IMG/VR virus record: IMGVR_UViG_3300034198_015954
Coordinates: 1-23,775 of that record
Source: a virus
Strand: one strand, 5' to 3'
Length of the DNA stretch: 23,775 nucleotides
The notes below the pieces were generated by a model. It worked only from the letters and a program-made list of their open reading frames with translations. It had not been told where the DNA came from and did no database searches. A program made the position numbers and the translations under genes. Below, piece after piece: positions 4,829-23,775 of the stretch. Position 1 is the first letter of the stretch, and each line of letters starts with the position of its first letter.

Positions 4829-4835
4829 TATTTAG
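4829..4835 (-). promoter_or_regulatory. Late promoter CTAAATA for gp18-gp19
   Basis: CTAAATA on the minus strand lies 31 bases before the gp18 ATG. The predicted leader is about 26 nt and includes the AGGAG ribosome binding site. The heptamer is a variant of the T4 late box and recurs ahead of the 17949 operon. Confidence 0.6.
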
Positions 4836-4837
4836 CG

Positions 4838-4875
4838 GATACCAAGAAAAATTAGCTGTTAGATACCAATAAAAA
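4838..4875 (+). repeat. Short direct repeat between divergent late promoters
   Basis: Two 14-base copies, GATACCAAGAAAAA (4838-4851) and GATACCAATAAAAA (4862-4875), differ at one base and are offset by 24 bases. They lie between the leftward gp18 promoter and the rightward promoter at 4889, so a protein-binding or promoter-associated role is possible but unproven. Confidence 0.45.
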
Positions 4876-4888
4876 GGGAACAAAAAGG

Positions 4889-4896
4889 TGTAAATA
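4889..4896 (+). promoter_or_regulatory. Late-promoter-like TGTAAATA
   Basis: TGTAAATA is followed by TTTG and then ATG at 4901. The spacing is one base shorter than at the gp13/gp14 and 699 promoters, so the transcript would start at or within a base of the start codon. Confidence 0.5.
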
Positions 4897-4900
4897 TTTG

Positions 4901-6675: not shown

Positions 6676-7947
6676 ATGCCAAGATTAAGCCTATACCGCC
6701 CAGACAAGGGCAATGATTTTAAATTTATCGACCGAACCGCATGGGAGATGTTCCAAGTGGGCGGAACCGATGTATTTGTACACAAATACTTAGGTCCAGG
6801 TAATTCAGTGCAGGCAGACAGTCCTGCAGTTCCTGCGTACTCGACAGATAATCCTTCACAGATACAAGATCTGCTGTTCTTAGAAAACAGAGATAGGAAA
6901 TACGACCCTGATATTTTTATACTTCGTGGTGTGTACAATTTGACAGATACGGATTTTAATCTCAGTCAATTTGGATTATTTCTACAAAACGATACTGTGT
7001 TTATTACTTTTCATATCAACGACACTGTAGAAAAACTAGGACGAAAAATTATTGCAGGAGATGTGTTAGAATTACCTCATTTAAAAGACGAGTTTGCATT
7101 GAACGATCTTCAGTTTGCTCTCAAACGATTCTATGTGATTGAAGAAGTGACTCGAGCAGCAGAAGGATTTTCAGTGACATGGTATCCACATCTCTATCGT
7201 GCGAAATGTAAACCATTAGTCGATAGCCAAGAATTCAAACAAATACTCGATCAAGCCCTAACTGACGAAAATGGAGATCCGTCTAATACCACTCTTAGAG
7301 ATATTATGTCTACATATGAAAAAGAAATGCAGATAACTCAAGCAGTTCTTGATCAAGCCGAAACTGATGCTCCTAAAAGTGGTTATGATACAACTAGATA
7401 TTACAGCGTTAGCCAGCGAGAGGATGGTAAAATTGATTTGATCAGTGTCGACGACACTACGACACTAGTTTCTCTAGAAAACAGAGCCACTGACGAAAAC
7501 GGAATACCATTGGTTGATTCAAATGGTGAACCTATATATGCAGAATATACTGCTAGTAGTGAATTTGTCAGTCCCGCTATGGATAATTATTCCAATGAAC
7601 GAGATCAGGATGCAATACCGCCTAATGGTGCAGCATTTAGTTCTGGAATAGCATTTCCTGTACAAGCAGCCAGGGGCCAATTTCATCTTCGCACAGATTA
7701 TAAACCTAATAGATTGTTTAGATTCAACGGTAAGCGATGGCTCAAATACGAGGACGACATCAGAATGACTATAAGTAATCTTGGACCCTCGGACGTCGTC
7801 AGCGGACAACCGTTTGAAGGAAAAGATGTTCGATATACACAAAAGACCGGATTCATTAACAACCCTATCACCGATACTATAGACGGAAAAGTTGTTAAGC
7901 AACGACAAAGCCTTAGTAAGGCTCTAAGACCCGAGGCAGACGACTAA
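6676..7947 (+). CDS. 14: Neck protein gp14
   Basis: This 423-residue protein fits T4 gp14. The strand-rich part SQFGLFLQNDTVFITFHIND..GRKIIAGDVLELPHL..RFYVIEEV (about residues 95-165) parallels the gp14 pattern of FGxxVQDEVxLxINP, a GDLIYFP segment and a domain that ends near a tail-facing surface. gp14 works with gp13 to seal the head and attach the tail. T4 gp14 is 256 residues; the extra length is C-terminal and includes LFRFNGKRWLKYEDD (W355 and neighbours), a WNG-type motif also seen in gp15 and gp18. A GTG at 6658 would add six residues, but it lies in the spacer of the inverted repeat, upstream of the promoter box, so the ATG at 6676 is preferred. Its stop overlaps the gp15 start (TAATG). 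Confidence 0.85.
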   Translation: MPRLSLYRPDKGNDFKFIDRTAWEMFQVGGTDVFVHKYLGPGNSVQADSPAVPAYSTDNPSQIQDLLFLENRDRKYDPDIFILRGVYNLTDTDFNLSQFGLFLQNDTVFITFHINDTVEKLGRKIIAGDVLELPHLKDEFALNDLQFALKRFYVIEEVTRAAEGFSVTWYPHLYRAKCKPLVDSQEFKQILDQALTDENGDPSNTTLRDIMSTYEKEMQITQAVLDQAETDAPKSGYDTTRYYSVSQREDGKIDLISVDDTTTLVSLENRATDENGIPLVDSNGEPIYAEYTASSEFVSPAMDNYSNERDQDAIPPNGAAFSSGIAFPVQAARGQFHLRTDYKPNRLFRFNGKRWLKYEDDIRMTISNLGPSDVVSGQPFEGKDVRYTQKTGFINNPITDTIDGKVVKQRQSLSKALRPEADD

Positions 7948-9590
7948 TGGATCATTTTTATGACGGACAAATAAGACGCTATGTTACACAATTTATGCGT
8001 TTTTTTATCGGATTCAAATATCAATCCGGCGACGGAGACTTCAGACATGTTCCGGTTACATACGGAGACCTTACACGCCAAGTAGCAGCTATTATTAGAG
8101 ATAACAGCGAAAACAAAATGCCTACTGTACCGCGTATTGCCTGTTATATAACAGGATTAGAATTAGACACTTCGAGATTATCAGATCCAAGTTTTGTTAG
8201 TAAATTAAATATTAGAGAACGTGCCTATACTAATGAAAACGGTATGATCGAATATAAAAATGTTCAAGGTGGAAACTATACCGTCGAACGATTACATCCA
8301 ACGCCATTTAAATTAAAATTAAAAGCAGATCTTTGGACATCTAACACTGATCAAAAATTACAATTATTAGAACAGATTTTGGTATTTTTTAATCCTAGTT
8401 TTGAAATACAGACCACTGATAACTATATAGACTGGACTAGTCTTACTACAGTTTTTTTAGACAATGTGACATTTAGTTCTAGAACTATTCCCCAAGGTGC
8501 AGAGTCTGATATTGATATCTGTAGTATGGAGTTTACAACACCCATATATATTTCAACACCCGCAAAGGTCAAGAAATTAGGTGTTGTTCAAGGAATTAGA
8601 TTTAATATTTTTGACGAATCTGGAAATCTTCATAATCTAAATGATTTAACCATCGACTTAAATGCAGAAAACAACATAGGCGGTCATGCTAATAACTTAG
8701 ACAAATATGGTGTTTTATTGCTTAAAAGTAACAATGGTGGAGAAAATGACTATGATGTTTCTATACTAGACGTTAGCGAAGCTGTGACATCAATTGGACA
8801 AGAGATTCCTAGTAAAACTGGTCCAAGAATAGACTGGAGTACTATATTAGATCTACACGGTGCTTACCAACCGGGGTTATCAAAGATCTATTTTAGGCAA
8901 GCGTCAGGGTTTGAAATACAAGGAAGATTTACTATCAACGAAGTAGATCATAGTTATCTAGTTGTCACAATCGAAGATAAACCGTCTAACACTATAATCT
9001 ATAGTGATGTGTATCCCAGCGGACGATCGACCATCGATGCCATCGTAGACCCTTATAAGTTCAATCCGTTGAAGCATTTTGGTTCAAGGTCTGATATTAT
9101 ACCTGGTACTCGTTATCTTGTGTTAGACACTGTAAATTCTAGCAGCATTAGAGAAAATGGTTTTATGAAGTATGGTCAGAATCCGTTAGACGGTAGCAGT
9201 CGTAATGTCTATGACGGGCCCGATGCTTGGAAAAATACCAACGGGTCTGACCCGTTGATCGAAGTTAACACAATCATAGAGTGGAATGGAAACTCGTGGG
9301 TAAATCTAATGCCTACGTGGGTTACATCGATAGCACCATACGATTCTACAGTGGTTTATCAGCAGGGAAAAATTGTAGTCTACAACGGAATAGTATATCG
9401 AGCTCTAGAAAATATATCTAAACAAGATAATGTATTATTACCCCCTGACAACCCGTTGTTTGAATCGATCGAGTTAGTGTTCCAAAATCTTAAAACTGGT
9501 ATACAGTATCGATGGGCTGGCGACAAATGGTTAAAATCTTTTGAGGGCGAATATCCGTCAGGTTCGTGGCGATTTGATCTAGATCCTTGA
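7947..9590 (+). CDS. 15: Tail sheath stabiliser / completion protein gp15, C-terminally extended
   Basis: gp15 closes the top of the sheath and tube and joins the tail to the neck. The N-terminus (FYDGQIRRYVTQFMRFFIGF, then RHVPVTYGD) matches the T4 gp15 opening, and the PTPFKLKLKADLWTSN and QLLEQILVFFNPSFE segments (about residues 117-153) match its core. T4 gp15 has 272 residues and this protein has 547. The added C-terminal half holds a WNG motif (W446), a carbohydrate-binding-like stretch YDSTVVYQQGKIVVYNGIVY (about residues 468-487) and a final YRWAGDKWLKSF motif (W523). Translation is coupled to gp14 through the TAATG overlap. The extension could decorate the neck or act as a surface-binding module; that part is inference. 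Confidence 0.9.
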   Translation: MDHFYDGQIRRYVTQFMRFFIGFKYQSGDGDFRHVPVTYGDLTRQVAAIIRDNSENKMPTVPRIACYITGLELDTSRLSDPSFVSKLNIRERAYTNENGMIEYKNVQGGNYTVERLHPTPFKLKLKADLWTSNTDQKLQLLEQILVFFNPSFEIQTTDNYIDWTSLTTVFLDNVTFSSRTIPQGAESDIDICSMEFTTPIYISTPAKVKKLGVVQGIRFNIFDESGNLHNLNDLTIDLNAENNIGGHANNLDKYGVLLLKSNNGGENDYDVSILDVSEAVTSIGQEIPSKTGPRIDWSTILDLHGAYQPGLSKIYFRQASGFEIQGRFTINEVDHSYLVVTIEDKPSNTIIYSDVYPSGRSTIDAIVDPYKFNPLKHFGSRSDIIPGTRYLVLDTVNSSSIRENGFMKYGQNPLDGSSRNVYDGPDAWKNTNGSDPLIEVNTIIEWNGNSWVNLMPTWVTSIAPYDSTVVYQQGKIVVYNGIVYRALENISKQDNVLLPPDNPLFESIELVFQNLKTGIQYRWAGDKWLKSFEGEYPSGSWRFDLDP

Positions 9591-9996: not shown

Positions 9997-10252
9997 AAGA
10001 TTTTTAACAGAATATAGCGATTTTCAAAATCGAATTTCTCAAATAAATGATCAAGATCTTCAACATGTGTTGACAAGCAAACTTATACGTCTTAAAGAAT
10101 TAGTTGTATTACTTGACGGAGAACACGAAGTCATGCTTGCAACCAAAAGACTTAGCGGTGAAATGGAAGAATTTCGAAATGAAATCGGAACTGTTCGCCG
10201 ATTTCTTTTCGATACCCTAAAATCCTGGGAAAAATCTAATCTCAACGATTAG
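9971..10252 (+). CDS. Small helical/coiled-coil protein of unknown function
   Basis: This 93-residue protein is not one I recognise by function. It is highly charged and mostly helical in character, with heptad-like stretches from about residue 10 to 85 (for example LIRLKELVVLLDGEHEVMLATK) and no Cys, signal peptide or membrane segment. It starts inside the 3' end of the Nudix-like gene in another frame and so belongs to the gp14-gp15 transcription unit. Its TAG stop shares two bases with the TAA of the giant virion gene on the other strand. Position suggests a minor structural or assembly protein. Confidence 0.7.
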   Translation: MIQQIQNSERFLTEYSDFQNRISQINDQDLQHVLTSKLIRLKELVVLLDGEHEVMLATKRLSGEMEEFRNEIGTVRRFLFDTLKSWEKSNLND

Positions 10253-13200
10253 GCTTGTGCTTCGCCCCAACGTAATATAATAGCAGCCGGTATTGCTGTA
10301 CCGCTGACCTTATAGACGTTGACAGCTAGCACATCTGGACCATTTGGAAATGCACCACGTCCTCCTATGGCAGTAGTTGTCAATTCTTTGAGTTGACTTA
10401 GGTCTAGGTTTGATGTGCTGCCCGGGTTAGTAATAAAGGAAAATACCTGTTCTCCCGGCAATGCATATTGAGGATCACCGAACTGGAATGTCGTTGTCGC
10501 TCCACTGCTGATCGAAGCATTAGAGGTTTGGGTCATGGATGCTCGGATAACTGACGTTGATCCTAGTCTTCTTGTTGTAACTGCTGCTACAGAGGTTCCT
10601 GCTGGAAATTGCGTATAGCTGGTTGCGATTCTAGTTCCCACAGTGGCACCGGATGCATTCCAACTCGCAAGTGTAAAGAATAGATAGTTAGTGTTTGCAT
10701 AGGCACTGTTGGTCGTCGATGCCTGAACCGTGACGGTTACTGTACTACCCGATGTACTGGTACTGTTAGCAATGCTACTCATAACAAATCTAGTGTAGGA
10801 TACCCCAGAAATCAAAGCATATGCGGTTGTGATCGAGATCACTGTCTGCGAAGCAACTATGAAAGGATTCACAGATAATTGATCACCTACAGCGGCTGAC
10901 AATACCGCAGCGTCGGCATCTGTAACTAAAAAGTCACTTCTACCGGTGCTAAAAGCACTGTTATAACCAGTTGAAATAGTGTTGGTATCGACCACTGGTA
11001 TATTGGTACCAACACCGGATGTAAGATTGGCCGGAGAACTCATCACAATTCTTGTATATGAACTTCCAAGATATGAAGGAGTAATGCTTGAGATCGATTG
11101 ATTAGAAGTCAAGAAGTTACTCAGAGTAAATGTTCTTCCAGCTGGAGAGCCCGGAACTGTTGTTATCGCAGCAGATGCTAACGTCACTAGAGTAAATGTT
11201 GTACTTCCGTTGGTTGCAGATATTAGATATGTAGTCGGACTGGTATATCCCGAAATAGTTCCCGCCGAAGGCACCGGCGGTGTGCCAGTTGGCCCTGGCT
11301 GTGATCCAGAAACAGTCACGGTCATTCCCACATACAAAGTAGCAGCAGTGCATGTAAATTGACCTGCTGATCCTACGATATTAACTCCACTTAGTGTACC
11401 AGTGGTGTTCATACTAAGTGTATCACCGACTCTTAATGGAGTAGAACCTGAAAATGAATTATAACTGGAGTTTGTGATAACAAAATCCGATCGAGCAGCA
11501 CTCAAAGCATTAGCATATCCCGATAAGCCCACGGGATTTGCCACAGCGGTAAGAGTATTGGTCACTGTCGTAAATGCTCTCGCGGTCACTGTGGCAGTTA
11601 GTGCTCCTTGTACAATTGCTGTAGACGTAGTTGCTGGTACACCGCCCCAATTAACAGAACCCCCTAAAGCAATTTGTGCAAAACTGGGCTGACCGCCTGA
11701 TGCTGCACTAGATAACCCAGACCAGGAAATAAAAGTTGGATTTGTTGGATAATTTCTAGGATTTAAAATCCCTTCAACAACAATGGCACCTGTGCCGGTA
11801 TCGGCAGTTATGGCTATTTCAGCTAGTAGCAGTTGTGCTCGATTTAATAAATCTCTTTCTCCTAGATCGCCAGTGAGTGCATTAGAAACACTAGGAGCCA
11901 ATCTGATCATGAATGCTGTTTGCTTGGTAGTGGTGATGCTTAAGCCAGTGGCTGCATAATTAAAGAGATAGCCTCGATCATTGTCAAATAACCCATCAGT
12001 GAGCAAAGCAGATCCCCAATGGCTGATTGTTGGAGTTGTAGTACAACTTACCAATTCTACTCCTGAATTGTCGGCATGTGATACAGCAATACCGGCAGTA
12101 AATGTTCTATTGATACCGGCAGTAAAGTTTGATAAGTTAGCTCCCCGAGACACACCAATTAGATTGTTTCCATTCTTTCCAGAGTAAGAAATTAATTCGT
12201 TGTCGATATAAACAACACCCGATGACGGGAATCTGCCGGCGTTGGACAACGGAATACTTGTCGACGAGGAAGTAATAGCTGCCGATAGTCTATTTTTTGC
12301 ACTAGCGTTTTCCACTTCATAGCGAACTGGCAAATTAGCTGTTCGCATGTATGCTTCGGTGTTGACGTTTGAGTTTCTCATTCGATGCAGGAATACAAAT
12401 TTTCCATCGGCACCGCGCATCATGAATTCTACAAATCCTGCTGCATACCATGTATATTGCATGCCTAACATCTGCATGCGCCAGGGCAGTATGTTATATC
12501 CACTTGGTCCAGTACCGTCGGCAGGATCCATGTTCCATTGACTCTGTGGAACATAGAGGTCTGTAGTAATACATATTCTTGCGCCTACAATCGAGCTAGC
12601 ACCTCTCCAGTCAGGGGAAACAGTCATTGCGGTCTGACTAGAAATTCCGGTAACAACATGACTCATTCCTCTAATTACAATTTTATCACCCACTGATAAT
12701 TGATCCTGGAACCTAGTACCTGTGCCGGTTACTTGGTTGCTGTCGATTACTATGGCGGCTGTGCCTGTTAATTGATTAGTACTGGATCTTCGTACCACAG
12801 CCATTTCCTGTCCATCGTATTGATAAAATAGACCATTTTGTTCGTCAAAGGCTCCTATGCGTACGGTTGATCCGTGCCAACGTTTGAGTACCACCTTGCA
12901 ATCGTCTCCCAATGATGCTACAAGATCCGAAATTACTACATTCGATCTTACTCGGAATCTTCTAGCATCAACAACGCTTTCAACAATGTAACTACCGTTG
13001 TATTCAAAAGAAACGCAACCTATTATCTCGATTTCAGCACCTGGCTGTAGACCATGGTCAGTGTCATCTGTAGTAAAAGTAATAACGCTGTTGATGCTGG
13101 TACCACTGGCAGTAGCCGACGCTAGATTGTAACTAGGAGCAAATAATCCCCCAGTGGTGTACATCATGCCCTTTCCGGATTGATATCGAATATATTTTTT

Positions 13201-16200
13201 ACTTTGACGTATGGCTTGAGCACCATGGGAAGGACCGCCTGTACCTAGCTGAACTCCTCCATCAAAGGGCCTATGTGTGAAAAAGCTGTCAGGTCTTACA
13301 TACACAACCCCTGCCAACCCTATGTTTGTACTAATAACGCCTGTTGTTCTTGCTGGGTATCTAATACTTGTAAGACTGGGGACTTGGGTGACTACATGCG
13401 GACCGGTAGCTAATTGATGATTGGCTGATAAAAGATCAACGTTTAACGCTGAAGTATTATTGCCCACTACGGCAAATCTCGTAGTTCCGTTAAAGGAGCC
13501 GGCTGCTACTTCTTCCCAGGTCGCAGATGCTGCCAGCACACGATCAGTCCATGTTCCAGTTTCACCAGTAAACGAAGTCAGTGCAGATGTACTGCCGTCT
13601 GCTATAACCAAAAATCCATCATTGCTATAATCTATGCAATTCCAATTGGCCGAAGTTGGCAAAGTTGAAGCTGCCCATGTTAACGCATTTGTACTAACGG
13701 CTGCATTTACGGTTCCTCTGGCCACAGCAACGAATCTATTAGCCCCGAAAGATATAGCACTCCATGTAGTACTGGCTGGCAAGGCTCCGGTGGCCGCCCA
13801 TGTTGCTCCGTTATCTGGAGAATATGCTGCTGCGGTTCCACCGCTGGCTATGGCTACAAAATAGTTAGATGTTCCTATGAGACCTCCTACTACATCTGAC
13901 CAAGTAGCAGAAGATGGAAGTGTAGACGCTGTCCAACTTGTACCGTTTGAACTATAAGCTGCAGCGGTTCCACCGCTGGCTATGGCTACAAAATATCCCC
14001 CATAATATGTCACAGAAGACCAGGTTGACGACGACGGTAGCGTTGATGCAGACCAAGTCAAACCAAAGTCTGTACTATAAGCTGCAGCGGTTCCACCGCT
14101 GGCTATAGCTACAAAATAGTTAGATGTTCCTATGAGACCTGCGGCGACCGAAGTCCATGTGGTACTGGAAGGCAAAGCTCCACCGGCGGTCCATGACGTT
14201 CCATTTGAACTTTTTGCTGATGCACTACTGCCAGATCTCACAGCGACCCATTGACCATTTGTCCATGCTATACCAGTCCACGAACCTGAAGATGGCAATG
14301 TTTGACTTACCGAATCAAAACTAGGAGCTGGCTGAGAAGTAATCGAAGATAAAATAGTAGTCCCCGGAAGTAATCCGTGGTTTGACGAAAAATCGACTTG
14401 GATAGTAGGAATTGCACCAACATTTAAAATTGTATTATTTGATATACTTCCAGTCAATGCTTCGCTGATTGTTAACGTGGGATATATTGAAACACTATCA
14501 CCGACATAGGTTATCCCAGATGCTGTTACAGATGTGATTGCTCCGTTAGTCCCAATAGATGCCACTGATAAAATAGCATTATTATAGGGTGAAGATCCAG
14601 AAAGATTGGTTCCTAAAACTTTTATTCTATTTCCAATTTTATAGCCAGTTCCCGGAGTTGTAGCTGTGGCAGAATATAGACCATTGCTTCTTATTACTGT
14701 AAACACTGCCGAAACTCCAGCCGGCGAATCGTTTGTACCTGATACCGCAGCATAAGTTGCGTCCCCTGTGGCTCCTAGGGGGGTAGGAACTATTCTATAA
14801 TCTATGATAACACCGCCGGTTACACCGTCAACCAGCATTACGATATCATTGGTTCCGTCGACTCCGCCAAATAGACTACCTAGCCAAGTCACACTGTCGC
14901 CGGAAGTAAAACCTGAACCTCCCGATACTAGCGTGATATCATAAATACCTGTTCCGCCTTCTCTAAGTACCGTGATAGCAGCGCCAACTCCCGATCCAGT
15001 AGTGGACGACATAAACACTGATGTGTATGTACCTGAACCATCAAATGCAGTACCGGTAAATGCAAATGAATTTATACTTCCACCGCTATTAACAGCGGAA
15101 ACAGATATCACGATATCATTAGTGCCATCCGTGCCGCCTAGATCGGAGCCTAACAGTACTATTCTATCTCCCACTGCATAATTTTGACCATTTGCTGAAC
15201 TGTCAGCCGGATCTGATACCGAGTAAGCTCCACTAACTCTATCTACTTTGAATGTTGCCCCGACTCCGATAGGATTTATATTCGAGCCCGACACTCCGGT
15301 ATTTTGTCCGTCTGCTCCTACATAAGTTCTTCCTAACGGCCCTGAAAGATTCAATGTATTTCCATCTAGAGAACTAATAATCAAACCGTTACCGCTAGCA
15401 TCTGATAGAGCCATGTTCTGTTGAACACCTGTCAGATCTACCAATGTTAATGAGGTGCTAGATACACTGCTTACATTGGTTTTTACATTAGCACTCACAG
15501 TGTTGCTTCCAACGGAACCGGATATTGATGTGCCAGCTATAATGCTAGGTGATCCAGAAATAGGCGAACCTGGCGTGGGGGCGGACCCTGTGTATGCAAT
15601 AATAGAACTGCCTGATGTTGAAATAAAACGTGTTTGCACGGTCTGTTCAGATCCATTGCTAAACACAGAAAAAGTGGGTTGACCTATCGATGCGCCTGTG
15701 AAAAATGCTGCTTGCCTAATCTGCACAAATGATGTATACAAGTTGTCATTAGTCGAAGTGCCTACTCTAGCAGAAGCATAGTATGTAAAACTCACAGAAC
15801 TAGGAACATTATAAACTAAAAAACTTCCTTCTGCTCTTGCAAATCCAGAAATAGCAGCATTCAGTCCTTTGACTGTGATAGGTTGGCCAGCTGAAAAACC
15901 ATGTGTGCCTGAAGTTGTTACAGTAATCAGTGAAGATCCAAAACTTCCAGTGCCCACTGAAGCATCTGTGCCCACAGCAATCACCGAGAGGTCAGTGCCG
16001 GGGATTTCATACAGACTTGGGTATTGCCGTATCTGTCCCAATGCTTGCCATTTTGTAGGTTGTAGTCCGTACTCAAAGTCAGCATCAAGCATGGCCTGCG
16101 GAGCAGCTACACGCATGCGTTCTACAGCATCTGTGCCAAAGTCCCATGGTCTTATGGTTTGGTGTGATTCTTCTACAAATATTTGTATTGGCGCCGATGC

Positions 16201-17001
16201 TGATAAACTAGTGGTATCAACAGCAAAGTATACAGTAGTAATGGCATCGCTGGTCTGCCACCAGTAAGGAAAATCTAGATCACTTAACAATTCGCCGTTG
16301 CCGCTGCTTCTTCCTTGTTTCAGGCTCACTGTGATTGGTCTTGAAGAATCAGCAAAATTATATAGAATATTGCCAGTAGATGTATCTGTGATCAATAGGA
16401 ATTCATCAACACTATAGTTTCCTATGACTTTTATCGAAGTAACTCCTGGCTCTTTTGCAGGCATGGCCGAGAGTCCATTTTGTATCACTGCGCTGAAAAC
16501 AGACCAAAGTGTGGTATTTCGAGCAGATGCTCCTGTTTCGCCATTTTGAGGAACATTATTATTTGATAAAAACACCTGCGGCACAGCGGTTTGTGAATAG
16601 GAGGGGCTGACCACTGTATTTGTAAAAATAAAATTGTTTATAATATTTTTTAGATATGTTTGTCCGGCTATTTCAGGACTAACGTCGCCTCTAATTTGTG
16701 GTTCTCCGTCGATCCAAAAGTAATCAGCAATTTTTCGACACTGCACATTACCGCCGTATCTTAGATCGTGTGCTACAGCATCAATAAAATATCCAACGTC
16801 TCTTGTACATTTTTGTGAAGCATAGGTATACCCAACAAAAGGAGCAACACTATTAGCTATCTGATTGTTAATAAATGCCACTACCTGTGCTTGTAAAAAA
16901 CCCTTATTGGCTAACAGTAATGCAACAGCTTTAGGGAAAAGATTATCATCTTTGCTAATACCCGGTTCGAATATATACTTTTTTATCTGCTTCTTTGCCA
17001 T
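10249..17001 (-). CDS. Giant mosaic virion / fibre protein (2250 residues)
   Basis: This is one of the very large structural proteins of cyanophage-type T4-like myoviruses, probably a tail- or baseplate-associated fibre. Segments in order: an N-terminal virion motif (KCTRDVGYFIDAVAHDLRYGG, about residues 64-84, given in part); three beta-repeats (about 577-835) with GDRIxxLGxxLGG and GTNDI; seven propeller-like repeats (about 902-1189); a conserved virion domain (about 1238-1565) with YQSGKGMMYTTGG and DGTGPSGYN; a module with SGVVYIDNELISYSGK; and three C-terminal repeats (about 1815-2190) with GDxLS and YTRxVMSS. It is rich in Ser, Thr and Gly, with very few Cys or Lys outside the N-terminus. 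AAAGGA precedes the ATG. It is the last gene of the operon starting at 17949. A receptor-binding role is inferred, not shown. Confidence 0.8.
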   Translation of the reverse strand: MAKKQIKKYIFEPGISKDDNLFPKAVALLLANKGFLQAQVVAFINNQIANSVAPFVGYTYASQKCTRDVGYFIDAVAHDLRYGGNVQCRKIADYFWIDGEPQIRGDVSPEIAGQTYLKNIINNFIFTNTVVSPSYSQTAVPQVFLSNNNVPQNGETGASARNTTLWSVFSAVIQNGLSAMPAKEPGVTSIKVIGNYSVDEFLLITDTSTGNILYNFADSSRPITVSLKQGRSSGNGELLSDLDFPYWWQTSDAITTVYFAVDTTSLSASAPIQIFVEESHQTIRPWDFGTDAVERMRVAAPQAMLDADFEYGLQPTKWQALGQIRQYPSLYEIPGTDLSVIAVGTDASVGTGSFGSSLITVTTSGTHGFSAGQPITVKGLNAAISGFARAEGSFLVYNVPSSVSFTYYASARVGTSTNDNLYTSFVQIRQAAFFTGASIGQPTFSVFSNGSEQTVQTRFISTSGSSIIAYTGSAPTPGSPISGSPSIIAGTSISGSVGSNTVSANVKTNVSSVSSTSLTLVDLTGVQQNMALSDASGNGLIISSLDGNTLNLSGPLGRTYVGADGQNTGVSGSNINPIGVGATFKVDRVSGAYSVSDPADSSANGQNYAVGDRIVLLGSDLGGTDGTNDIVISVSAVNSGGSINSFAFTGTAFDGSGTYTSVFMSSTTGSGVGAAITVLREGGTGIYDITLVSGGSGFTSGDSVTWLGSLFGGVDGTNDIVMLVDGVTGGVIIDYRIVPTPLGATGDATYAAVSGTNDSPAGVSAVFTVIRSNGLYSATATTPGTGYKIGNRIKVLGTNLSGSSPYNNAILSVASIGTNGAITSVTASGITYVGDSVSIYPTLTISEALTGSISNNTILNVGAIPTIQVDFSSNHGLLPGTTILSSITSQPAPSFDSVSQTLPSSGSWTGIAWTNGQWVAVRSGSSASAKSSNGTSWTAGGALPSSTTWTSVAAGLIGTSNYFVAIASGGTAAAYSTDFGLTWSASTLPSSSTWSSVTYYGGYFVAIASGGTAAAYSSNGTSWTASTLPSSATWSDVVGGLIGTSNYFVAIASGGTAAAYSPDNGATWAATGALPASTTWSAISFGANRFVAVARGTVNAAVSTNALTWAASTLPTSANWNCIDYSNDGFLVIADGSTSALTSFTGETGTWTDRVLAASATWEEVAAGSFNGTTRFAVVGNNTSALNVDLLSANHQLATGPHVVTQVPSLTSIRYPARTTGVISTNIGLAGVVYVRPDSFFTHRPFDGGVQLGTGGPSHGAQAIRQSKKYIRYQSGKGMMYTTGGLFAPSYNLASATASGTSINSVITFTTDDTDHGLQPGAEIEIIGCVSFEYNGSYIVESVVDARRFRVRSNVVISDLVASLGDDCKVVLKRWHGSTVRIGAFDEQNGLFYQYDGQEMAVVRRSSTNQLTGTAAIVIDSNQVTGTGTRFQDQLSVGDKIVIRGMSHVVTGISSQTAMTVSPDWRGASSIVGARICITTDLYVPQSQWNMDPADGTGPSGYNILPWRMQMLGMQYTWYAAGFVEFMMRGADGKFVFLHRMRNSNVNTEAYMRTANLPVRYEVENASAKNRLSAAITSSSTSIPLSNAGRFPSSGVVYIDNELISYSGKNGNNLIGVSRGANLSNFTAGINRTFTAGIAVSHADNSGVELVSCTTTPTISHWGSALLTDGLFDNDRGYLFNYAATGLSITTTKQTAFMIRLAPSVSNALTGDLGERDLLNRAQLLLAEIAITADTGTGAIVVEGILNPRNYPTNPTFISWSGLSSAASGGQPSFAQIALGGSVNWGGVPATTSTAIVQGALTATVTARAFTTVTNTLTAVANPVGLSGYANALSAARSDFVITNSSYNSFSGSTPLRVGDTLSMNTTGTLSGVNIVGSAGQFTCTAATLYVGMTVTVSGSQPGPTGTPPVPSAGTISGYTSPTTYLISATNGSTTFTLVTLASAAITTVPGSPAGRTFTLSNFLTSNQSISSITPSYLGSSYTRIVMSSPANLTSGVGTNIPVVDTNTISTGYNSAFSTGRSDFLVTDADAAVLSAAVGDQLSVNPFIVASQTVISITTAYALISGVSYTRFVMSSIANSTSTSGSTVTVTVQASTTNSAYANTNYLFFTLASWNASGATVGTRIATSYTQFPAGTSVAAVTTRRLGSTSVIRASMTQTSNASISSGATTTFQFGDPQYALPGEQVFSFITNPGSTSNLDLSQLKELTTTAIGGRGAFPNGPDVLAVNVYKVSGTAIPAAIILRWGEAQA
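13826..14140 (-). repeat. Near-identical DNA repeats inside the propeller region
   Basis: Copies at 13826-13885 and 14081-14140 (60 bases each) are almost identical, and a third at 13958-13995 shares 38 bases. They encode repeated YFVAIASGGTAAAYS. Near-identity at the DNA level, not just in protein, points to recent duplication or gene conversion. Confidence 0.9.
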
Positions 17002-17553: not shown

Positions 17554-17949
17554 TTATCTCGCGATATCAGTGATAGAGTGATAATAGTTACTACTAAATA
17601 TCAACTTTTTTTCCGATGTTCCTATCGGAGAAGCTGCTAATTTTAATTTCGAATCATCAACTGTCACTATTAAATTTATTAAATCATTGCTTAGAGATGT
17701 TTTACCATACATAGTAATACTTGCTCTATCGAGCCCGGCTATCACTAAGCATTTGATTATTTCCTTTTCTGTAGGTCCGGCGTCTACACATATTGTGTAT
17801 TCTGCTGCCATAAATTCACCCACATAAAACTCGTCGATGAGAGTATTATTACGTATCGTAATCCACGGTCCCTTATACGCAAGGTTAACTCCGTGATTAA
17901 ACCGGAGTGTTCCTTTTAAACCTCGGAAAAAATATCTATCAAAGTTCAT
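17554..17949 (-). CDS. Conserved small virion-region protein, function unknown
   Basis: This 131-residue protein is not assigned to a function. It begins NFDRYFFRGLKGTLRF, contains ITIRNNTLIDEFYVGEFMAAEYTI (about residues 31-54, given only as position) and the segment VIAGLDRASITMYGK, and ends in a beta-rich stretch. The aromatic-rich strands suggest a compact beta domain. It is the first gene of a three-gene operon with the fibre-like protein and the 2250-residue protein, and follows a CTAAATA late promoter by 23 bases. No strong Shine-Dalgarno sequence is visible. The operon position suggests a connector or assembly factor for the large fibre protein; this is inference. Confidence 0.7.
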   Translation of the reverse strand: MNFDRYFFRGLKGTLRFNHGVNLAYKGPWITIRNNTLIDEFYVGEFMAAEYTICVDAGPTEKEIIKCLVIAGLDRASITMYGKTSLSNDLINLIVTVDDSKLKLAASPIGTSEKKLIFSSNYYHSITDIAR

Positions 17950-17972: not shown

Positions 17973-17980
17973 TATTTAGC
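17973..17980 (-). promoter_or_regulatory. Late promoter GCTAAATA for the giant-fibre operon
   Basis: GCTAAATA on the minus strand lies 23 bases before the ATG at 17949, giving a predicted leader of about 18 bases. It matches the CTAAATA heptamer before gp18 and separates the late fibre operon from the upstream glycan cassette. Confidence 0.6.
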
Positions 17981-17999: not shown

Positions 18000-19823
18000 T
18001 TACCTATTATTAGCAACTTTAATCAATTTCTGGTATTCTGGCAGATACAGATATTCAATATCACTGTTAATTAGGGTATTGACAGCATCCTCCAGAGTTT
18101 CAACAAGAGGATCTCCTCCTAGATTAAAACTAGTATTAAAAATAATAGGACACCCAGTAGTTTCGTAGAATTTTTTAATCAATTTGTAATACAGAGGATT
18201 TTGTTGTTCAGTAACTGTTTGGATCCTACAGGTACCGTCAACATGGATTATTGAAGGAATTTTTTCTTCAACTCCCGGTTGACAGTTGACTGCATACATC
18301 ATGTAAGGACTGCTGTCCATACCTCGAAGATCAAACCAATCGTGAACAAAGTCCTGTAAAATACTGCCAGCAAATGGGCGGAAATATTCCCTGTGTTTTA
18401 CACTGTTAACAAAATCCTTGCCGTCGATAAATCTCGGATCAAATAGAATGCTTCGATTGCCTAATGCTCGTGGACCGTTTTCCGACTGACCTTGAAATAA
18501 TGCCACAATATTCTTGTTTATTAAAAGATCAACAATGTCGCTGTCCTCCGCAGAAAGCAACTCAATTCCGTGGGTATCTTTGAATTTCTCTATGTCAAGG
18601 TCAGAATAATTGTACTGAAATCCCAGATATAATCCGTCACGAGAATAATCGATATTACTGCTAGGTTCTAGAGATTTATAAAACATCAAGGCAGCACCTA
18701 TAGCAGTTCCAGCATCATTGGAAATCGGTTCTACATAGATCTCAATGCCTTCATCTTTTAACCCTTCGAGATAAAAATAATTAGCCACACAATTTAATCC
18801 ATAGCCGCCGCTGATCACTACCTTTTTTTCACCTGTTCGAGCAACAGCTGATCGAATTAAATTAAGTACCTGTTGCTGAGTCTGTTTTTGACAAGCATAA
18901 GCCAAATCTCGTCTGTTTTCAAGCAAGGTTATGTCCCCGTTGTCTCCCCACACGGAAATACTTGGTGAATTGTCATTTAAATAGTCAAACAAACCTGCAT
19001 TGACCACAGCACCGTTCGGGTAGGTAGGAACGATCAGATTTCTATTAGACAGTGCGTGACTAGAAGATTCATCAAATAATTCTGGAATTTGATCTGTGGG
19101 TTTTCCATATGGAAAAAGTCCCATGGTTTTTCCTGCTTCAATGCTCGACCAACCACAGTATTGGGTCACTGCTTCGTAGACCTTTGTGATTCCTGCTCTA
19201 TCTGTGATCAAAGCTTCATGAACGCTGCCTGGTTCGTCGTAGATCGAGCTGTCGAAATCCTTGATATAAGCACCCGGATTTGGTCCCCTAAGACCGATGT
19301 GTTTATAAATCGTTTTAAAATTGTTTGGATATGAACAATCATAGACACTTTCGGTTTCCCAGCCTATTACGTTTTCTCCGTTGATTGTTAATGGAATAAA
19401 TGTTCCAGCACCGTCAACGATCACAGCCGTGGCTTTATCGAAACCTGATCTATAAAATGCACAGGCTGCATGTAGTTTGTGATGTACATGGCTAAGGTCA
19501 ACTACTTGTGGATGATTAAATGGTGATTCTTTTCTACTGATCAATCCTAGTTTTCTTGCAAGGCCGGTATAGACATCGTCGCCACTGAAATCGACCTTGC
19601 CTGCGGTGTCTGATAATTTTTGGGTGTGTGCTACAACAAGATAATCTATCTTATCTGTGTAGTCTAAAATCCTAAGCATGGCAGCATATGGCCCGCCGTC
19701 GTATTTGTGTCGACTCAATCTCTCTTCTTCTATGCTAAAGACGATCTTACCATTTTTAAGCAGGCACACACTGCTGTTGTGTCCTCTAGCGATAGCTGCT
19801 ATCCAAATATCTTTGTTATTCAT
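18000..19823 (-). CDS. NodU/CmcH-family carbamoyltransferase
   Basis: This 607-residue protein is a full-length O-carbamoyltransferase of the NodU/CmcH/TobZ type. Such enzymes activate carbamoyl phosphate with ATP as carbamoyladenylate and transfer the carbamoyl group to a hydroxyl, usually of a sugar. Visible family blocks: GHNSSVCLLKNGKIVFSIEEE (from residue 14, part), the metal-binding region HVHHKLHAA (112-120) with VDGAG (136-140), VVISGGYGLNCVANYF (335-350), the signature ENGPRALGNRSIL (448-460), and the C-terminal HVDGTCR and FNTSFNLGG (527-533, 562-570). No key block is missing. The start has AAAGGA. It is the last gene of the cassette, 9 bases after an SGNH gene. Target could be a glycan, lipid or DNA base. 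Confidence 0.92.
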   Translation of the reverse strand: MNNKDIWIAAIARGHNSSVCLLKNGKIVFSIEEERLSRHKYDGGPYAAMLRILDYTDKIDYLVVAHTQKLSDTAGKVDFSGDDVYTGLARKLGLISRKESPFNHPQVVDLSHVHHKLHAACAFYRSGFDKATAVIVDGAGTFIPLTINGENVIGWETESVYDCSYPNNFKTIYKHIGLRGPNPGAYIKDFDSSIYDEPGSVHEALITDRAGITKVYEAVTQYCGWSSIEAGKTMGLFPYGKPTDQIPELFDESSSHALSNRNLIVPTYPNGAVVNAGLFDYLNDNSPSISVWGDNGDITLLENRRDLAYACQKQTQQQVLNLIRSAVARTGEKKVVISGGYGLNCVANYFYLEGLKDEGIEIYVEPISNDAGTAIGAALMFYKSLEPSSNIDYSRDGLYLGFQYNYSDLDIEKFKDTHGIELLSAEDSDIVDLLINKNIVALFQGQSENGPRALGNRSILFDPRFIDGKDFVNSVKHREYFRPFAGSILQDFVHDWFDLRGMDSSPYMMYAVNCQPGVEEKIPSIIHVDGTCRIQTVTEQQNPLYYKLIKKFYETTGCPIIFNTSFNLGGDPLVETLEDAVNTLINSDIEYLYLPEYQKLIKVANNR

Positions 19824-19832
19824 GATTTTCCT

Positions 19833-20759
19833 TTAAAATCCGTAATACATGCCAGGCCACCGAATTCGATCGATGAAACGTTCGGGGAATTGGTATGATC
19901 TTGCTAATAGATGCTCGAACGCTCTCTTATCTTGTTTCATTCGATTTTGAAGTTTATCAATAGATTCTCCAACTTCTTTTGATATACTGATAGTTTCATT
20001 CGAAATGTTCAATTTCTTTGTTAGTTCCTGTTCAATCCATAGCGTGTGTTGAGTGGTAGTGGGATGGATATCTAGGAATGTCTCTGCAGAAGAATTGTTA
20101 GTATCGATAAATTCAAAAGTTAAATCTGCATGCTGTTGACAAAATAATTCCATGGGCATTAACCAATGATCTGAATGTTGATTCCAGATTTTTTCCTGAT
20201 AAACTCTCAACTCTGGTATGGTTTCCCATGCATGATCGACGACTTTATCTACACCGACTCGATTAAAAGGTTTTTCACCATATCCAGGCCCCTCTCTGAG
20301 ATCCTCTCCCATGTTTCTTATATCTCCTATGCTGGTCATGTAATATGTACAACCTGTGGAGTCTAGAAGACCCTGTGTCAGTAATATATGATTCAGTGTA
20401 TGCATGAGGTATGCTGGCTCATAGAAGAATGTTTCGATCCATTTTTTATCGTATAACTCGGCATTGATGTAATTAAAAACACTGCCGCCGGTTTTCCATC
20501 CTTGATTTCTTCCTCGGATATTACCAGGAGCCCACCAATCATTTCTAAGATGACTGCTCCATTGCACTATGACAATATCGTCTTTGCCAAAGTTATAGTT
20601 ACAGTGTGCTTCTGCTACCCTCTCTGCGATGGCTCGATTACCAATACCGGTTAAACCCCAATTATAAGATTCCTCATATTCCAACCCTAGTAGGGTGGCA
20701 TAAGTTGGCCAACTATAACTAGTGTAACTGCATCCAAAAGCAAAAAAACGTTTACTCAT
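19833..20759 (-). CDS. SGNH-hydrolase-like protein, copy 1 (altered catalytic motif)
   Basis: This 308-residue protein has the SGNH/GDSL layout: block I FGCSYT with nucleophile candidate Ser11, GxGN (GIGN, 38-41), a block-III-like VQWSSHLRND (65-74), and a C-terminal FLDIHP (228-233) with His232. The usual DxxH needs Asp three residues before the His, where this copy has Leu229; its Asp230 is one place off. It may be inactive or use a different acid. SGNH enzymes de-esterify or transacylate glycans and lipids. It is a tandem paralogue of the neighbouring gene with the same length and a shared ending WPxxxxGF. The start follows the neighbour's TAG stop directly (TAGATG), with AGGAT upstream. 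Confidence 0.8.
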   Translation of the reverse strand: MSKRFFAFGCSYTSYSWPTYATLLGLEYEESYNWGLTGIGNRAIAERVAEAHCNYNFGKDDIVIVQWSSHLRNDWWAPGNIRGRNQGWKTGGSVFNYINAELYDKKWIETFFYEPAYLMHTLNHILLTQGLLDSTGCTYYMTSIGDIRNMGEDLREGPGYGEKPFNRVGVDKVVDHAWETIPELRVYQEKIWNQHSDHWLMPMELFCQQHADLTFEFIDTNNSSAETFLDIHPTTTQHTLWIEQELTKKLNISNETISISKEVGESIDKLQNRMKQDKRAFEHLLARSYQFPERFIDRIRWPGMYYGF

Positions 20760-21686
20760 CTAAAATCCTATAACAGGCATCGGCCATTTCATTTTACCTA
20801 GATGTTCAGGGAACAAATCAGTGGTATACAATCCCCAAACAAAATCTTTTTTACTGTGTTTTGTTTTTTTATAAAATTCATCCACAATATCAGCAATTTC
20901 CTCCGATGCTGTGAAAGTGTCGTTTGATATCTTTAATTTATCCTTTAGTTCAGCCTGGCACCATAAAAGATGTTGTCGAGGAGTTGGATGAAGATCGTCT
21001 ACATATATGTTTTTTCCATTGTCTGTGTTATCGTAGTAGTTATAGGTAAGATCCGTATATTTTTGAGCATGTACTTCCATCGGGGTCAGCCAGCGATCCT
21101 GATGTTTCTGCCAGATAGATTCTTCGTAGATTTCAAATTCTGGTATTTTTTTCCAGGCTAGTTTAACAGATCCGCGATCGAGTGGATTGGCTATATTTCC
21201 GGTTTCTCCATAATCGGCATTTGTTCTAAGATCCGAACCTAGATTTCGTAGATCCCCTATGCTGGTCATATACCAATCACATCCGATCCCTTGTAAAAAT
21301 CCCTGAACAAGAGACACATGATTCAAAGTGTGCATGACATATGCTGGTTCATAGAAAAATTTTTCAATCCACTCGTTGTCATAGAGCTTTTGATTGATAT
21401 AATTAAACACGCTGCCCGAGGTTTTCCATCGATATGGTCGATCTCGACAACTGTATGGGTGCCAAAAATCATTTCTTAAATGGCTGCTCCATTGTACTAT
21501 AATAATATCATCTTTGGTGAATCGATGCCTGGCATGAGCTTCTGCGATTCTTTCTGCGATGGCTTTATTTCCCAGACCCTCGAGACCGTAGTTATATGTT
21601 TCGTCGTATTCAAAAGATAACATATTAGCCCAAGTGGGCCATGCATAGTGTGTGTAACTACAGCCAAAGGCGAAAAATCTCTGCAT
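20760..21686 (-). CDS. SGNH-hydrolase-like protein, copy 2 (motif intact)
   Basis: This 308-residue paralogue has block I FGCSYT with Ser10, GLGN (37-40), VQWSSHLRND (64-73) and an intact DxxH, Asp230-Asp-Leu-His233, in VDDLHPTPRQH. The triad is therefore complete and a hydrolase or acyltransferase on O-acylated sugars is plausible. Large blocks are shared with copy 1 (AFGCSYT, GSVFNYIN, FFYEPAY, MTSIGD), so the pair arose by tandem duplication. The start is one base after the glycosyltransferase stop, and no clear Shine-Dalgarno sequence is visible, which suggests translational coupling. No signal peptide is visible, so it acts in the cytoplasm or is carried by another route. Confidence 0.85.
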   Translation of the reverse strand: MQRFFAFGCSYTHYAWPTWANMLSFEYDETYNYGLEGLGNKAIAERIAEAHARHRFTKDDIIIVQWSSHLRNDFWHPYSCRDRPYRWKTSGSVFNYINQKLYDNEWIEKFFYEPAYVMHTLNHVSLVQGFLQGIGCDWYMTSIGDLRNLGSDLRTNADYGETGNIANPLDRGSVKLAWKKIPEFEIYEESIWQKHQDRWLTPMEVHAQKYTDLTYNYYDNTDNGKNIYVDDLHPTPRQHLLWCQAELKDKLKISNDTFTASEEIADIVDEFYKKTKHSKKDFVWGLYTTDLFPEHLGKMKWPMPVIGF

Positions 21687-21687
21687 G

Positions 21688-22695
21688 TTAACAGGTAGGA
21701 CATCCAGCAGGTGCAGTAGTAATAGATACCTCCGAATTGCCGGTAGGACTATTTTTAAATTTTTCTATGCCTTTTACTACCGATTCTACGATAACATCCT
21801 CAATCTTATCATTCATCTGCATGATGCCGTCGTTGCCTCGATCAGCCACGTCGTCCATGGTAATACGAATTGGACTGTATCTGCGTACCTGCCCGCCCAT
21901 GTCTAATATATCAAATTTTTCATAATCGGGATAAGACACATTGACAGCAAATGTCGATCCTAACACCACTGTACCGGGTTTGTCGAGTGCCGCTGCTATG
22001 TGCTGTCCTACCGAATCGCAACCAAAGAAATAATCTGCCTGAGAAATAATCCCAGCCCATTGTCTCAGTGCAACGTTCTGTGGAATTGCTACTGGATCTT
22101 TACAACCGTGCTTGGCGAAATCAATACCAATTTCAGACATCAATATAACTGCATATCCTGCTTTTTGCAATTTTTTGACAATATTGATAACATGTGTGCC
22201 TTCAAAACTTCGACCTGAAAGATCGAAAATGATGTTGTTTTCTGCTTTTACTCCCCGACCAAATGGCTGGAAAACGATTACTTTTTCTTTTTTTGTTTTT
22301 TCTTTTACTTCTTTGACAATATTATAACCTAGGAATTTTTCATCGTTAGATAATTTTAAAAATGGTCTCTGCAGCTCTCTGATGCCTTTGTTATTGATGG
22401 CAATATCATAGGCCTGTGCAATAGAACATTTTTGGTTAAAATATTCCCAGATACGATAGGGTTCCGGTGTTTCTAGATCACAATTTATTAGTTTATCTTC
22501 AAAAAGATTTTTGTGCCAGTGATCGTATGCTCGTTCATGGAGAATAGGATGCCCTCTATAAAAATCAGCTCCGCCCTCGCATACTATGATAAAATCTTTG
22601 CTGGTTTCTTCTGCATATTTTTCCAATGCAGGTATAGAGCACAGTACTCGGCCTGCGCCGCCGTTGATAAAAAAGGCTTTGGTTCTTTCAGACAT
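21688..22695 (-). CDS. Glycosyltransferase family 9-like (heptosyltransferase-type) protein
   Basis: This 335-residue protein fits the GT-B fold of GT9 (ADP-heptose:LPS heptosyltransferase-like) enzymes. The N-terminal loop NGGAGRVLCSIPAL (11-24) is the usual acceptor-domain opening. The C-terminal donor-domain stretch ADYFFGCDSVGQHIAAALDKPG (residues 220-241, shown here only as DSVGQHIAAAL) matches the family pattern of Asp/Ser-Gly-His-Ile-Ala-Ala-Ala followed by KPxxxxxGST. It ends CPTC. It is the first gene of the cassette and has TAGGA a few bases before its ATG. The donor sugar and acceptor cannot be inferred. LPS or O-antigen sugars are the usual targets of the family, but a phage enzyme could act on a virion glycan. 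Confidence 0.85.
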   Translation of the reverse strand: MSERTKAFFINGGAGRVLCSIPALEKYAEETSKDFIIVCEGGADFYRGHPILHERAYDHWHKNLFEDKLINCDLETPEPYRIWEYFNQKCSIAQAYDIAINNKGIRELQRPFLKLSNDEKFLGYNIVKEVKEKTKKEKVIVFQPFGRGVKAENNIIFDLSGRSFEGTHVINIVKKLQKAGYAVILMSEIGIDFAKHGCKDPVAIPQNVALRQWAGIISQADYFFGCDSVGQHIAAALDKPGTVVLGSTFAVNVSYPDYEKFDILDMGGQVRRYSPIRITMDDVADRGNDGIMQMNDKIEDVIVESVVKGIEKFKNSPTGNSEVSITTAPAGCPTC

Positions 22696-22711: not shown

Positions 22712-22736
22712 ATTATAAGACACTATTAATTTAGCA
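22712..22736 (-). promoter_or_regulatory. TATAAT promoter candidate with a TGCTAAA box
   Basis: On the minus strand TATAAT (22717-22712) is preceded by TGCTAAA (22736-22730) with 12 bases between. This spacing fits T4 middle promoters (MotA box plus TATAAT), though the box is imperfect and no activator gene is visible here. No good -35 is present. It is the only promoter candidate for the 18000-22695 cassette. Confidence 0.4.
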
Positions 22737-22770
22737 TCTTTTAAACTAGAGAACAATAGTCTTGAATTAA

Positions 22771-22794
22771 AAAAAGGACCCCAGGGTCCTTTTT
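22771..22794 (-). terminator. Intrinsic terminator after the chaperone-like gene
   Basis: An A run is followed by stem AGGACC (22775-22780), a 4-base loop, stem GGTCCT (22785-22790) and a T run (22791-22794). It begins just past the stop codon of the 22796-23449 gene. It isolates the glycan cassette from the tail-adhesin block upstream. Confidence 0.8.
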
Positions 22795-22795
22795 A

Positions 22796-23449
22796 TTATT
22801 CCGTGCTGTCCGGAGCTTGGAAGGGTTTTATTTTCCAAGGTTCTGTGATCGGCGTTCCGCCAGGTGCTGCTCCATGTGTCTGTGGAATATCTCTCAGAGC
22901 TTGTCTATACTGCTGCCATTGAGCTCTTAGATTTTCTGTCATGTCGCTTGCTTCTCGATGATCAGTGATGGCTAAAACCCTGTTTCGCCATTCTCTGATA
23001 TCTTGCCATGTTATATGAGGTTTTTTCCATGGATAGGGTTTTACAAATTCTTGTGTGGTAGGATCATATTCGATTTCCAAAAACTCATAGGTATGATCGG
23101 GTGGAGGGACTAGAGGTCTTGTATATACAGTACCGTCAGGGAGAGTTTCTTCATGCTGATCCAATATAGCATAGTCTGGAATTTCATCAGCTCCCACCAA
23201 GCAAGCAATAAGAGGATCTTGATTACAGTCTATTTTTACCTTGATCTGATCTACGGGAGTTGGATATGTTTCTCCGTTCTCGTCCGGGGTCTTAAAGCTG
23301 CCATTTAATCTATTGGTCGCTTGGTCCACAAACACCCATATGGTATCGTGTCCATTATAGGTCCAAATTCCAACCTTGTCTAGGGTTCTAGTCTGAGATA
23401 GATAATCGTCTGGAATTGGATATGTAAATGTTTTTTCAATTTTTGCCAT
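22796..23449 (-). CDS. Tail-fibre assembly chaperone-like protein
   Basis: The C-terminal part of this 217-residue protein, residues about 148-192 (WQDIREWRNRVLAITDH, then QYRQALRDIPQ), matches the phage tail-assembly chaperone (Phage_tail_APC-type) pattern, in which the helix pair RNxLLxxTD and YRxALRDIP is typical. The N-terminal 140 residues are less familiar. They hold an IWTYNGHDTIWVF segment and a proline-rich stretch (VPPPD). It lies 4 bases after the Gly/Cys-rich tail protein, which is the usual gene order of adhesin then chaperone, as in T4-like gp37/gp38 and tail-fibre/tfa pairs. The terminator follows at once. A role in folding or attaching the upstream adhesin is inferred from this context. 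Confidence 0.75.
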   Translation of the reverse strand: MAKIEKTFTYPIPDDYLSQTRTLDKVGIWTYNGHDTIWVFVDQATNRLNGSFKTPDENGETYPTPVDQIKVKIDCNQDPLIACLVGADEIPDYAILDQHEETLPDGTVYTRPLVPPPDHTYEFLEIEYDPTTQEFVKPYPWKKPHITWQDIREWRNRVLAITDHREASDMTENLRAQWQQYRQALRDIPQTHGAAPGGTPITEPWKIKPFQAPDSTE

Positions 23450-23453
23450 GTTA

Positions 23454-23775
23454 TTATCCGTAAGTAATTGAAATTAGTCCACCGGCGCCGTGGCCGCCGC
23501 ACCAACAGTTTCCACCATGTGTTTGCGCACTCATGCCGCCACCTCCTGGAAAATAGGATTTAGTGAACCAATTGGTACAAGATCCGTTTGGACCTCCATT
23601 GATACATCCGCCTGGACCATACATGGGTCCGCTGGCAGTGGCTGCTGCCAACATGGCATTTTGTTGGAATCCTTGGGCACACCAGCTATATGTATTGTAA
23701 GTCGATTGCGTGCCTGGGATACAGACATCGCCTCCATACGCACAGCAGCAATAAGAGTAAGGAATGCAGCAGGTA
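23454..23775 (-). CDS. Gly/Cys-rich tail protein, C-terminal part (5' end outside window)
   Basis: The frame is open from the TAA at 23454 to the right edge, giving about 107 C-terminal residues. An internal ATG at 23654 exists, but the frame continues upstream, so the real start is outside. The end GAGGLISITYG is typical of Gly-rich phage tail-tip or fibre proteins. There are 11 Cys, including a CCC run and a CWC, plus several GG runs. No further domain can be named. It is followed 4 bases later by a chaperone-like gene. A receptor-binding or tip protein is a reasonable inference; the Cys content is unusual for this kind of protein and may mean metal binding or disulfides formed outside the cell. 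Confidence 0.7.
   Translation of the reverse strand, partial: TCCIPYSYCCCAYGGDVCIPGTQSTYNTYSWCAQGFQQNAMLAAATASGPMYGPGGCINGGPNGSCTNWFTKSYFPGGGGMSAQTHGGNCWCGGHGAGGLISITYG

Follow-up and report, generated by a model that had tools for sequence, protein, structure and literature searches.

What is a compact set of sugar-modifying genes doing next to the tail fibre of a phage, and on which molecule do its products act? The 23,775-base virus record IMGVR_UViG_3300034198_015954 (hereafter the window) raises this question, as it carries four minus-strand open reading frames (ORFs) spanning 22695-18000 for a glycosyltransferase (GT), two SGNH-type proteins (SGNH-1 and SGNH-2) and a carbamoyltransferase (CT). 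The four genes and their positions are exactly those given in a preliminary description of this DNA, and the packing is as tight as claimed there, with intergenic gaps of 1, 0 and 9 nt. The region is also present, at 100% protein identity, on a 30,585-base IMG/VR contig. We find that GT-SGNH-CT is a conserved fibre-linked cassette of T4-like aquatic phages, and we tentatively propose that it decorates the phage's own fibres.

A conserved fibre-linked cassette

Among 80 distinct carbamoyltransferase loci, 41 had the order GT-SGNH-CT, 11 GT-SGNH-SGNH-CT and 23 GT-CT, with 5 others. When loci were collected with the GT as seed, a CT or SGNH gene followed the GT in 78 out of 80, far beyond chance; the genes, which the preliminary description proposed to follow across other phages, thus keep their order and are not scattered in relatives. 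The linkage to fibres was also tight. The cassette adjoined the 131-amino-acid (aa) gene that precedes the fibre in 66 out of 67 contigs with enough flank. With the fibre N-terminus as the seed, about 62 contigs were usable, and 60 of them had the cassette upstream of the fibre gene. Because most seeds were drawn from loci that carry the cassette, only the 80 best matches were kept and near-copies were counted, the fractions hold for this fibre family and not for all T4-like phages. Of the four plain no-cassette cases in the fibre-seeded search, three (L364, L368 and L370) were contig-end artefacts and only L372 may be real. The linkage spans freshwater, marine and cyanophage lineages. A cyanophage origin of the window-type phages was considered and rejected: psbA was not found in 20 cassette-carrying records, so these phages are probably not cyanophages. 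A second GT copy after the carbamoyltransferase (GT-CT-GT) was seen in L032-L040, L051, L055 and L059.

The cassette also appears to have been rearranged as an intact unit. In 22 carbamoyltransferase loci it lies on the strand opposite to its neighbours, mostly between the tail fibre assembly chaperone gene and the 131-aa gene, and is transcribed against the fibre genes. In the tree of the window's clade the co-directed form is nested among inverted ones, and the inverted label needs about two changes. No convincing inverted repeats were found at the two ends of the window cassette, the best end-to-end pair being 20 nt, 80% identical and AT-rich. The weak end repeats and the few tree changes point to a rare rearrangement rather than a site-specific invertible switch.

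The preliminary description had regarded the cassette as a separately bounded unit, and the conserved gene set, a terminator-like hairpin with a U-tract at the boundary to the chaperone gene and a promoter candidate of its own uphold this view. The promoter proposed there, a TATAAT (22717-22712), is not what the relatives keep; a separate candidate is. Upstream of the GT in the window's clade and its inverted relatives, TTGnnn followed after 16 to 18 nt by TAAAWT with a preceding TGn occurs in 17 of 23 sequences, against 0.03 expected from mononucleotide shuffles, a value that is not a true probability because the 23 sequences are related. Judged by eye, three of the six exceptions have TTGACA-N17-TATCAT, and others have mis-called or truncated starts. 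In the window the candidate is weak as a plain sigma70 consensus match and was not listed by the promoter scanner. The late-type motif nTAAATA was absent upstream of the GT in all 23 sequences, whereas it precedes 47 of the 49 homologues of the 131-aa gene (7.3 expected) and seven out of seven sheath genes, in agreement with the late promoter described earlier near the end of the cassette. The cassette of the window's clade thus looks to have its own early-type, sigma70-like promoter candidate. In other lineages, among them S-CAM3, Sf-FS3 and the L118 group, the GT is preceded by a late-type motif, and the timing of expression may therefore differ between lineages. In several lineages (L028, L041, L044 and L114) a strong terminator-like hairpin reaches to within 0-20 nt of the start codon of the GT, which is an unusual site for a leader.

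The enzymes and the supply of heptose

Family matches and fold models bear out the enzyme classes that had been read from the open reading frames (GT9-like, an SGNH pair and a NodU type). The GT matched PHROG 8954 with an E-value of 1.3e-152, while its match to PF01075 (GT9) was borderline (21.9 bits vs a gathering cut-off of 22). Its AlphaFold model (predicted local distance difference test, pLDDT, 89.2) most resembled the GT9 structure 3tov (Z 24.1), WaaF (21.7), TibC (20.5) and WaaC (19.6), followed by three plant NDH-associated chains (Z about 18) and by generic GT-B enzymes from 12.6. On this model the GT is a GT9/heptosyltransferase-type GT-B fold. A PDB sequence search with the GT and SGNH profiles gave no credible match, and the GT scored below the NCBIfam equivalog cut-offs for WaaC, WaaF and RfaQ (29.7 vs 170, 23.7 vs 467 and 13.7 vs 185 bits, respectively). 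The donor-side motif D227-S228-x-G230-x-H232 is invariant in 38 GT relatives and aligned to WaaF/WaaC; the hhalign alignment with WaaC covered the C-domain only. In the N-domain, the position of WaaC Asp13, the catalytic residue, seems to be held by an invariant Arg16, as judged from a three-residue offset in the structural alignment and from the motif. The median isoelectric point of the GT family, 6.1, lies below those of E. coli WaaF (7.2) and WaaC (9.0). In the freshwater clade the C-terminal tails of the GT (window 21688-21760) are unconserved and often close in cysteine pairs (GCPTC, CKTC, CCPK); the adjoining adhesins also have CC motifs.

The CT matched PF16861 (6e-58), PF02543 (6e-27) and PHROG 1601 (5e-162), with both Pfam domains, Carbam_trans_N and Carbam_trans_C, above their cut-offs (195.6 vs 27 and 95.5 vs 24 bits). 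Its solved relatives are 7xb6, NovN, TobZ and GdmN. H114, H118, D137 and D370, together with the YrdC-like QG-SE-GPRALGNRS block, are kept in at least 97% of 79 proteins and align with 7xb6 and NovN; from TobZ, we presume the four residues to be Kae1-type metal ligands. As the score against the NodU equivalog NF041651 was 130.4 vs 1000 bits, the CT is by sequence a member of the NodU/TobZ family and not NodU proper.

SGNH-1 and SGNH-2 are 52% identical and had no family match in Pfam (above cut-off), PHROG or NCBIfam. The AlphaFold model of SGNH-2 (pLDDT 87.7) matched TesA with a Z of 12.2, its top structural matches being mostly GDSL/SGNH enzymes, and the modelled fold is that of SGNH proteins. 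SGNH-1 has conserved GCS and DxHP motifs. Across the family S11, G38/G40 and H232 (block I Ser, block II Gly and block V His) are invariant and N41 is conserved, whereas residue 230, two before His232, is mostly D and in some members E. In the region of the block III Asn, Q66-W67 and R72/D74 are invariant, and N73 is His in some members. The SGNH protein had no match in 50,697 annotated phage records, so a function could not be borrowed from these, but an SGNH profile retrieved 194 relatives from IMG/VR. In the SGNH tree most other two-copy loci have one gene of clade A, GT-proximal, and one of clade B, CT-proximal, while both window copies fall in clade B, within which support is low; the window pair therefore probably arose by a separate duplication. 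SGNH copy number showed no pattern by eye with adhesin number. A bacterial origin found no support in a genome scan with the SGNH profile (the GT was not scanned), which gave no bacterial operon and only two contigs, both of one Marinimicrobia metagenome-assembled genome and with phage-type neighbours. These contigs, L062 and L063 (PBPT01000082.1 and PBPT01000016.1), hold a complete phage fibre-cassette neighbourhood and are probably phage DNA binned with the bacterium. No clear membrane segment was detected in the window GT, SGNH or CT proteins, although a few relatives touch the threshold.

Genes for making activated heptose accompany the cassette in several relatives. HldE-like genes (HldE halves) lie beside GT-CT in Sf-FS3, S-SSM7 and S-CAM3, and HldD-like genes in Sf-FS3 and S-CAM3. 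Outside the cyanophages, marine contig L144 (and, from a look at the sequences, L145 and L146) has GmhB, HldE and HldD-like genes beside the giant fibre and gp15, and on freshwater contig L147 they lie elsewhere. An rfaE-domain-II match was present in 9 out of 15 contigs, and PF13580 (SIS isomerase), used as a GmhA marker, in none of 15 contigs. All heptose-gene scores, the rfaE match included, are under the equivalog cut-offs, so the names give the type and not a proven function. Taken with the heptosyltransferase-type GT, these genes suggest that the donor is probably NDP-heptose. The cyanophage genes annotated as phosphoheptose isomerase (108-114 aa; L004:13024-13368 and L005:14821-15147) match the EcbF/BcbF capsule phosphatase model, and that annotation looks wrong.

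Phage fibre or host surface

The idea that the cassette acts on a glycan, put forward in the preliminary description, is supported; the heptosyltransferase-type GT and the heptose-donor genes of several relatives make it more specific, and a carbamoylated glycan is a plausible product. With a little less than even confidence, we propose that the cassette decorates the phage's own fibres or adhesins with a modified heptose. The GT would move heptose from NDP-heptose, for which the source would be the host or, in several relatives, the phage's own HldE/GmhB/HldD; the SGNH enzymes would add or remove an acyl group, and the CT would place an O-carbamoyl on the transferred heptose. The acceptor would be the receptor-binding fibre or a glycine/cysteine-rich adhesin, which would be modified in the cytosol as the virion is assembled. 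Such a decoration would adjust receptor binding or shield the fibre, as TibC acts on the adhesin TibA. The presence of TibC, a protein heptosyltransferase, among the top GT model matches counts in favour of this reading, as do the heptose genes of relatives, the late-type motif before the GT of Sf-FS3, the lack of a clear membrane segment in the GT, SGNH and CT proteins and the comparatively low isoelectric point of the GT family. Fibre decoration is preferred to modification of host lipopolysaccharide (LPS) owing to the near-obligate fibre linkage, an exchange of the cassette slot with halogenase and oxygenase genes, and the LPS of Synechococcus WH8102. In L165 (= L354) the slot upstream of the 131-aa gene (87-5575) holds two to three tryptophan halogenase ORFs (PF04820, 6e-85 and 2e-108) and two 2-oxoglutarate (2OG)-Fe(II) oxygenases, and the cassette was not found in this 58-kb contig, the single case of its kind. 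2OG oxygenases also flank many GT-CT pairs. The substrates of known relatives of tryptophan halogenases and 2OG-Fe(II) oxygenases are aromatic rings or side chains of proteins. The LPS of WH8102 is without heptose (PMC4515613), and phage Sf-FS3, for which WH8102 is the listed host, carries the GT-CT pair and heptose genes.

Several points weigh against fibre decoration. The early-type promoter of the window's clade suits a host-directed role, a link to the fibre would be expected as well from enzymes that edit the receptor of the fibre, and no acceptor site was identified on any fibre. Arg16 at the apparent position of WaaC Asp13 means that GT activity is not assured, and several large contigs gave no HldE-like match; where the genes are missing, the donor would have to come from the host. 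Moreover, the carbamoylated heptose that is known best belongs to LPS and is made through Pseudomonas WapO (PMC8005017). It is possible, if on the doubtful side, that soon after infection the enzymes add or alter an acylated or carbamoylated heptose on a host surface glycan, be it the LPS core or another one, masking the receptor against superinfection or progeny trapping. The conserved early-type promoter and the lack of late motifs in the same 23 sequences are the best evidence for such host-surface editing; insulation by the terminator, transcription against the fibre genes in inverted relatives, the WapO precedent and the same reading of glycosyltransferases in pelagimyophage host-recognition clusters (PMC7029224) point the same way. 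Against it count the heptose-free LPS of the host of Sf-FS3, the late-type motifs before the GT in other lineages (Sf-FS3 among them), the halogenases and oxygenases in the slot, which would not be expected to edit LPS, and a cassette devoid of a flippase, ligase or membrane protein.

The solved CT relatives TobZ, GdmN and NovN act on antibiotics, and linkage within a single lineage of phages can be a matter of descent. We nevertheless regard it as improbable that the enzymes produce a carbamoylated sugar metabolite or act on some other target, for instance phage DNA, with the fibre position as inherited synteny only, since the linkage persists when the cassette is inverted or exchanged and when SGNH copies are gained or lost, and spans all three groups of phages. 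A role in DNA modification was dropped, as the neighbourhood gives no support. That the genes are mere passengers without coordinated function, a possibility raised as "stuffer" LPS genes for cyanophages (PMC3037559), we consider very improbable given catalytic motifs that are invariant across wide divergence, the kept gene order and the conserved promoter. To return to fibre decoration, the site beside the giant fibre may be an exchange slot for modifiers of receptor-binding proteins, a suggestion we make with some doubt; most phages would hold heptosyl- and carbamoyltransferase cassettes there, and other phages tryptophan halogenases with 2OG oxygenases. If true, tail fibres would be decorated post-translationally by enzymes that the phage itself encodes, and the viral halogenases would gain a native substrate.

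Related systems and neighbouring features

The claim that the system is undescribed holds only in part: the GT-CT pair with heptose genes is already annotated in S-SSM7, P-SSM2, S-CAM3 and Sf-FS3, among cyanophage LPS genes. The cyanophage pair T4-GC302 (GT) and T4-GC303 (Nol-like carbamoyltransferase) of P-SSM2, S-SSM7, S-CAM3 and Sf-FS3 is homologous and adjacent, in the same order and beside tail-fibre genes, with HldE/HldD-like genes downstream; such clusters have been discussed as LPS genes (PMC3037559). The pair differs in promoter type and in having no SGNH gene of the window family. The TibC/BAHT autotransporter heptosyltransferases, with a heptose donor and an adhesin target (PMC4358343), share the GT-B fold, but the phage GT lacks their N-terminal domain and aligns from residue 1 to TibC 91-399, and it gave no sign of a dodecamer or an iron finger. 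Pseudomonas WapO (PA5005) is comparable in enzyme type, a carbamoyltransferase for LPS heptose beside LPS core heptosyltransferases (PMC8005017), although it belongs to a chromosomal LPS core locus with no SGNH gene between. In the host recognition clusters of pelagimyophages and cyanomyophages, within the structural region, tail fibre genes are likewise accompanied by glycosyltransferases and LPS-type genes; their description stresses GT8 and has 0 occurrences of "carbamoyl" (PMC7029224), whereas the window type is a fixed GT9-SGNH-CT unit.

A literature search for the GT-SGNH-CT combination, with most subscription journals outside its coverage, found nothing. As far as the searched literature and collections show, the SGNH family within the GT-CT pair, its spread in phages of fresh and marine waters in which psbA was not detected, the inverted form of the whole cassette, the promoter-type contrast and the swap with a halogenase module are new. 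The LPS-type genes of large aquatic phages have so far been set down, without test, as possible "stuffer DNA" or as superinfection exclusion. That a heptosyltransferase-type enzyme and a carbamoyltransferase are tied in a fixed and near-obligate way to one fibre module gives a specific prediction, namely heptose or carbamoyl-heptose on the fibre or the LPS. If fibres are the target, this changes the view of phage receptor binding and may explain the co-located halogenases and hydroxylases.

The features of the locus are collected in Table 1. Around the cassette lie fibre, chaperone, gp15 and sheath-type genes, which matches the setting of a T4-like host recognition cluster, and the chaperone adjoins the cassette in many relatives of both cassette orientations.

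Table 1. Features of the cassette and its surroundings in the window
Feature	Position	Strand	Remarks
GT (P0004), predicted GT9/heptosyltransferase-fold glycosyltransferase, cassette gene 1	21688..22695	-	335 aa
SGNH-1 (P0003), predicted cytosolic SGNH-fold enzyme	20760..21686	-	308 aa
SGNH-2 (P0002), predicted cytosolic SGNH-fold enzyme	19833..20759	-	308 aa
CT (P0001), predicted NodU/TobZ-type O-carbamoyltransferase, final cassette gene	18000..19823	-	607 aa
Promoter candidate TTGTTC-N17-TAAATT, TGC before second hexamer	22728..22756	-	TTGTTC 22756-22751, 17-nt spacer, TAAATT 22733-22728; pattern conserved in relatives
Terminator-like hairpin with U-tract, chaperone gene/cassette boundary	22764..22801		18-nt inverted repeat; -15.3 kcal/mol, z -3.2
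Late-type motif CTAAATA before fibre operon, outside cassette	17973..17979	-	nTAAATA conserved upstream of w131 homologues
Tail fibre assembly chaperone, conserved neighbour	22796..23449	-	PF16778 8.9e-11
w131, 131-aa pre-fibre gene, conserved neighbour	17554..17949	-	seeded contigs
Giant fibre gene, conserved neighbour	10249..17001	-	2250 aa; fibre-seeded scan

Next to the cassette (window 22796-23774; L008, L010, L013 and L017), two to four Gly/Cys-rich adhesin genes with the motif NGGQCCLWTVP alternate with assembly chaperones. The gp15-like tail sheath stabiliser (window 7947-9590) has a weak C-terminal match to CBM_5_12 (24.2 vs 26.2 bits), which is unexpected for such a protein.

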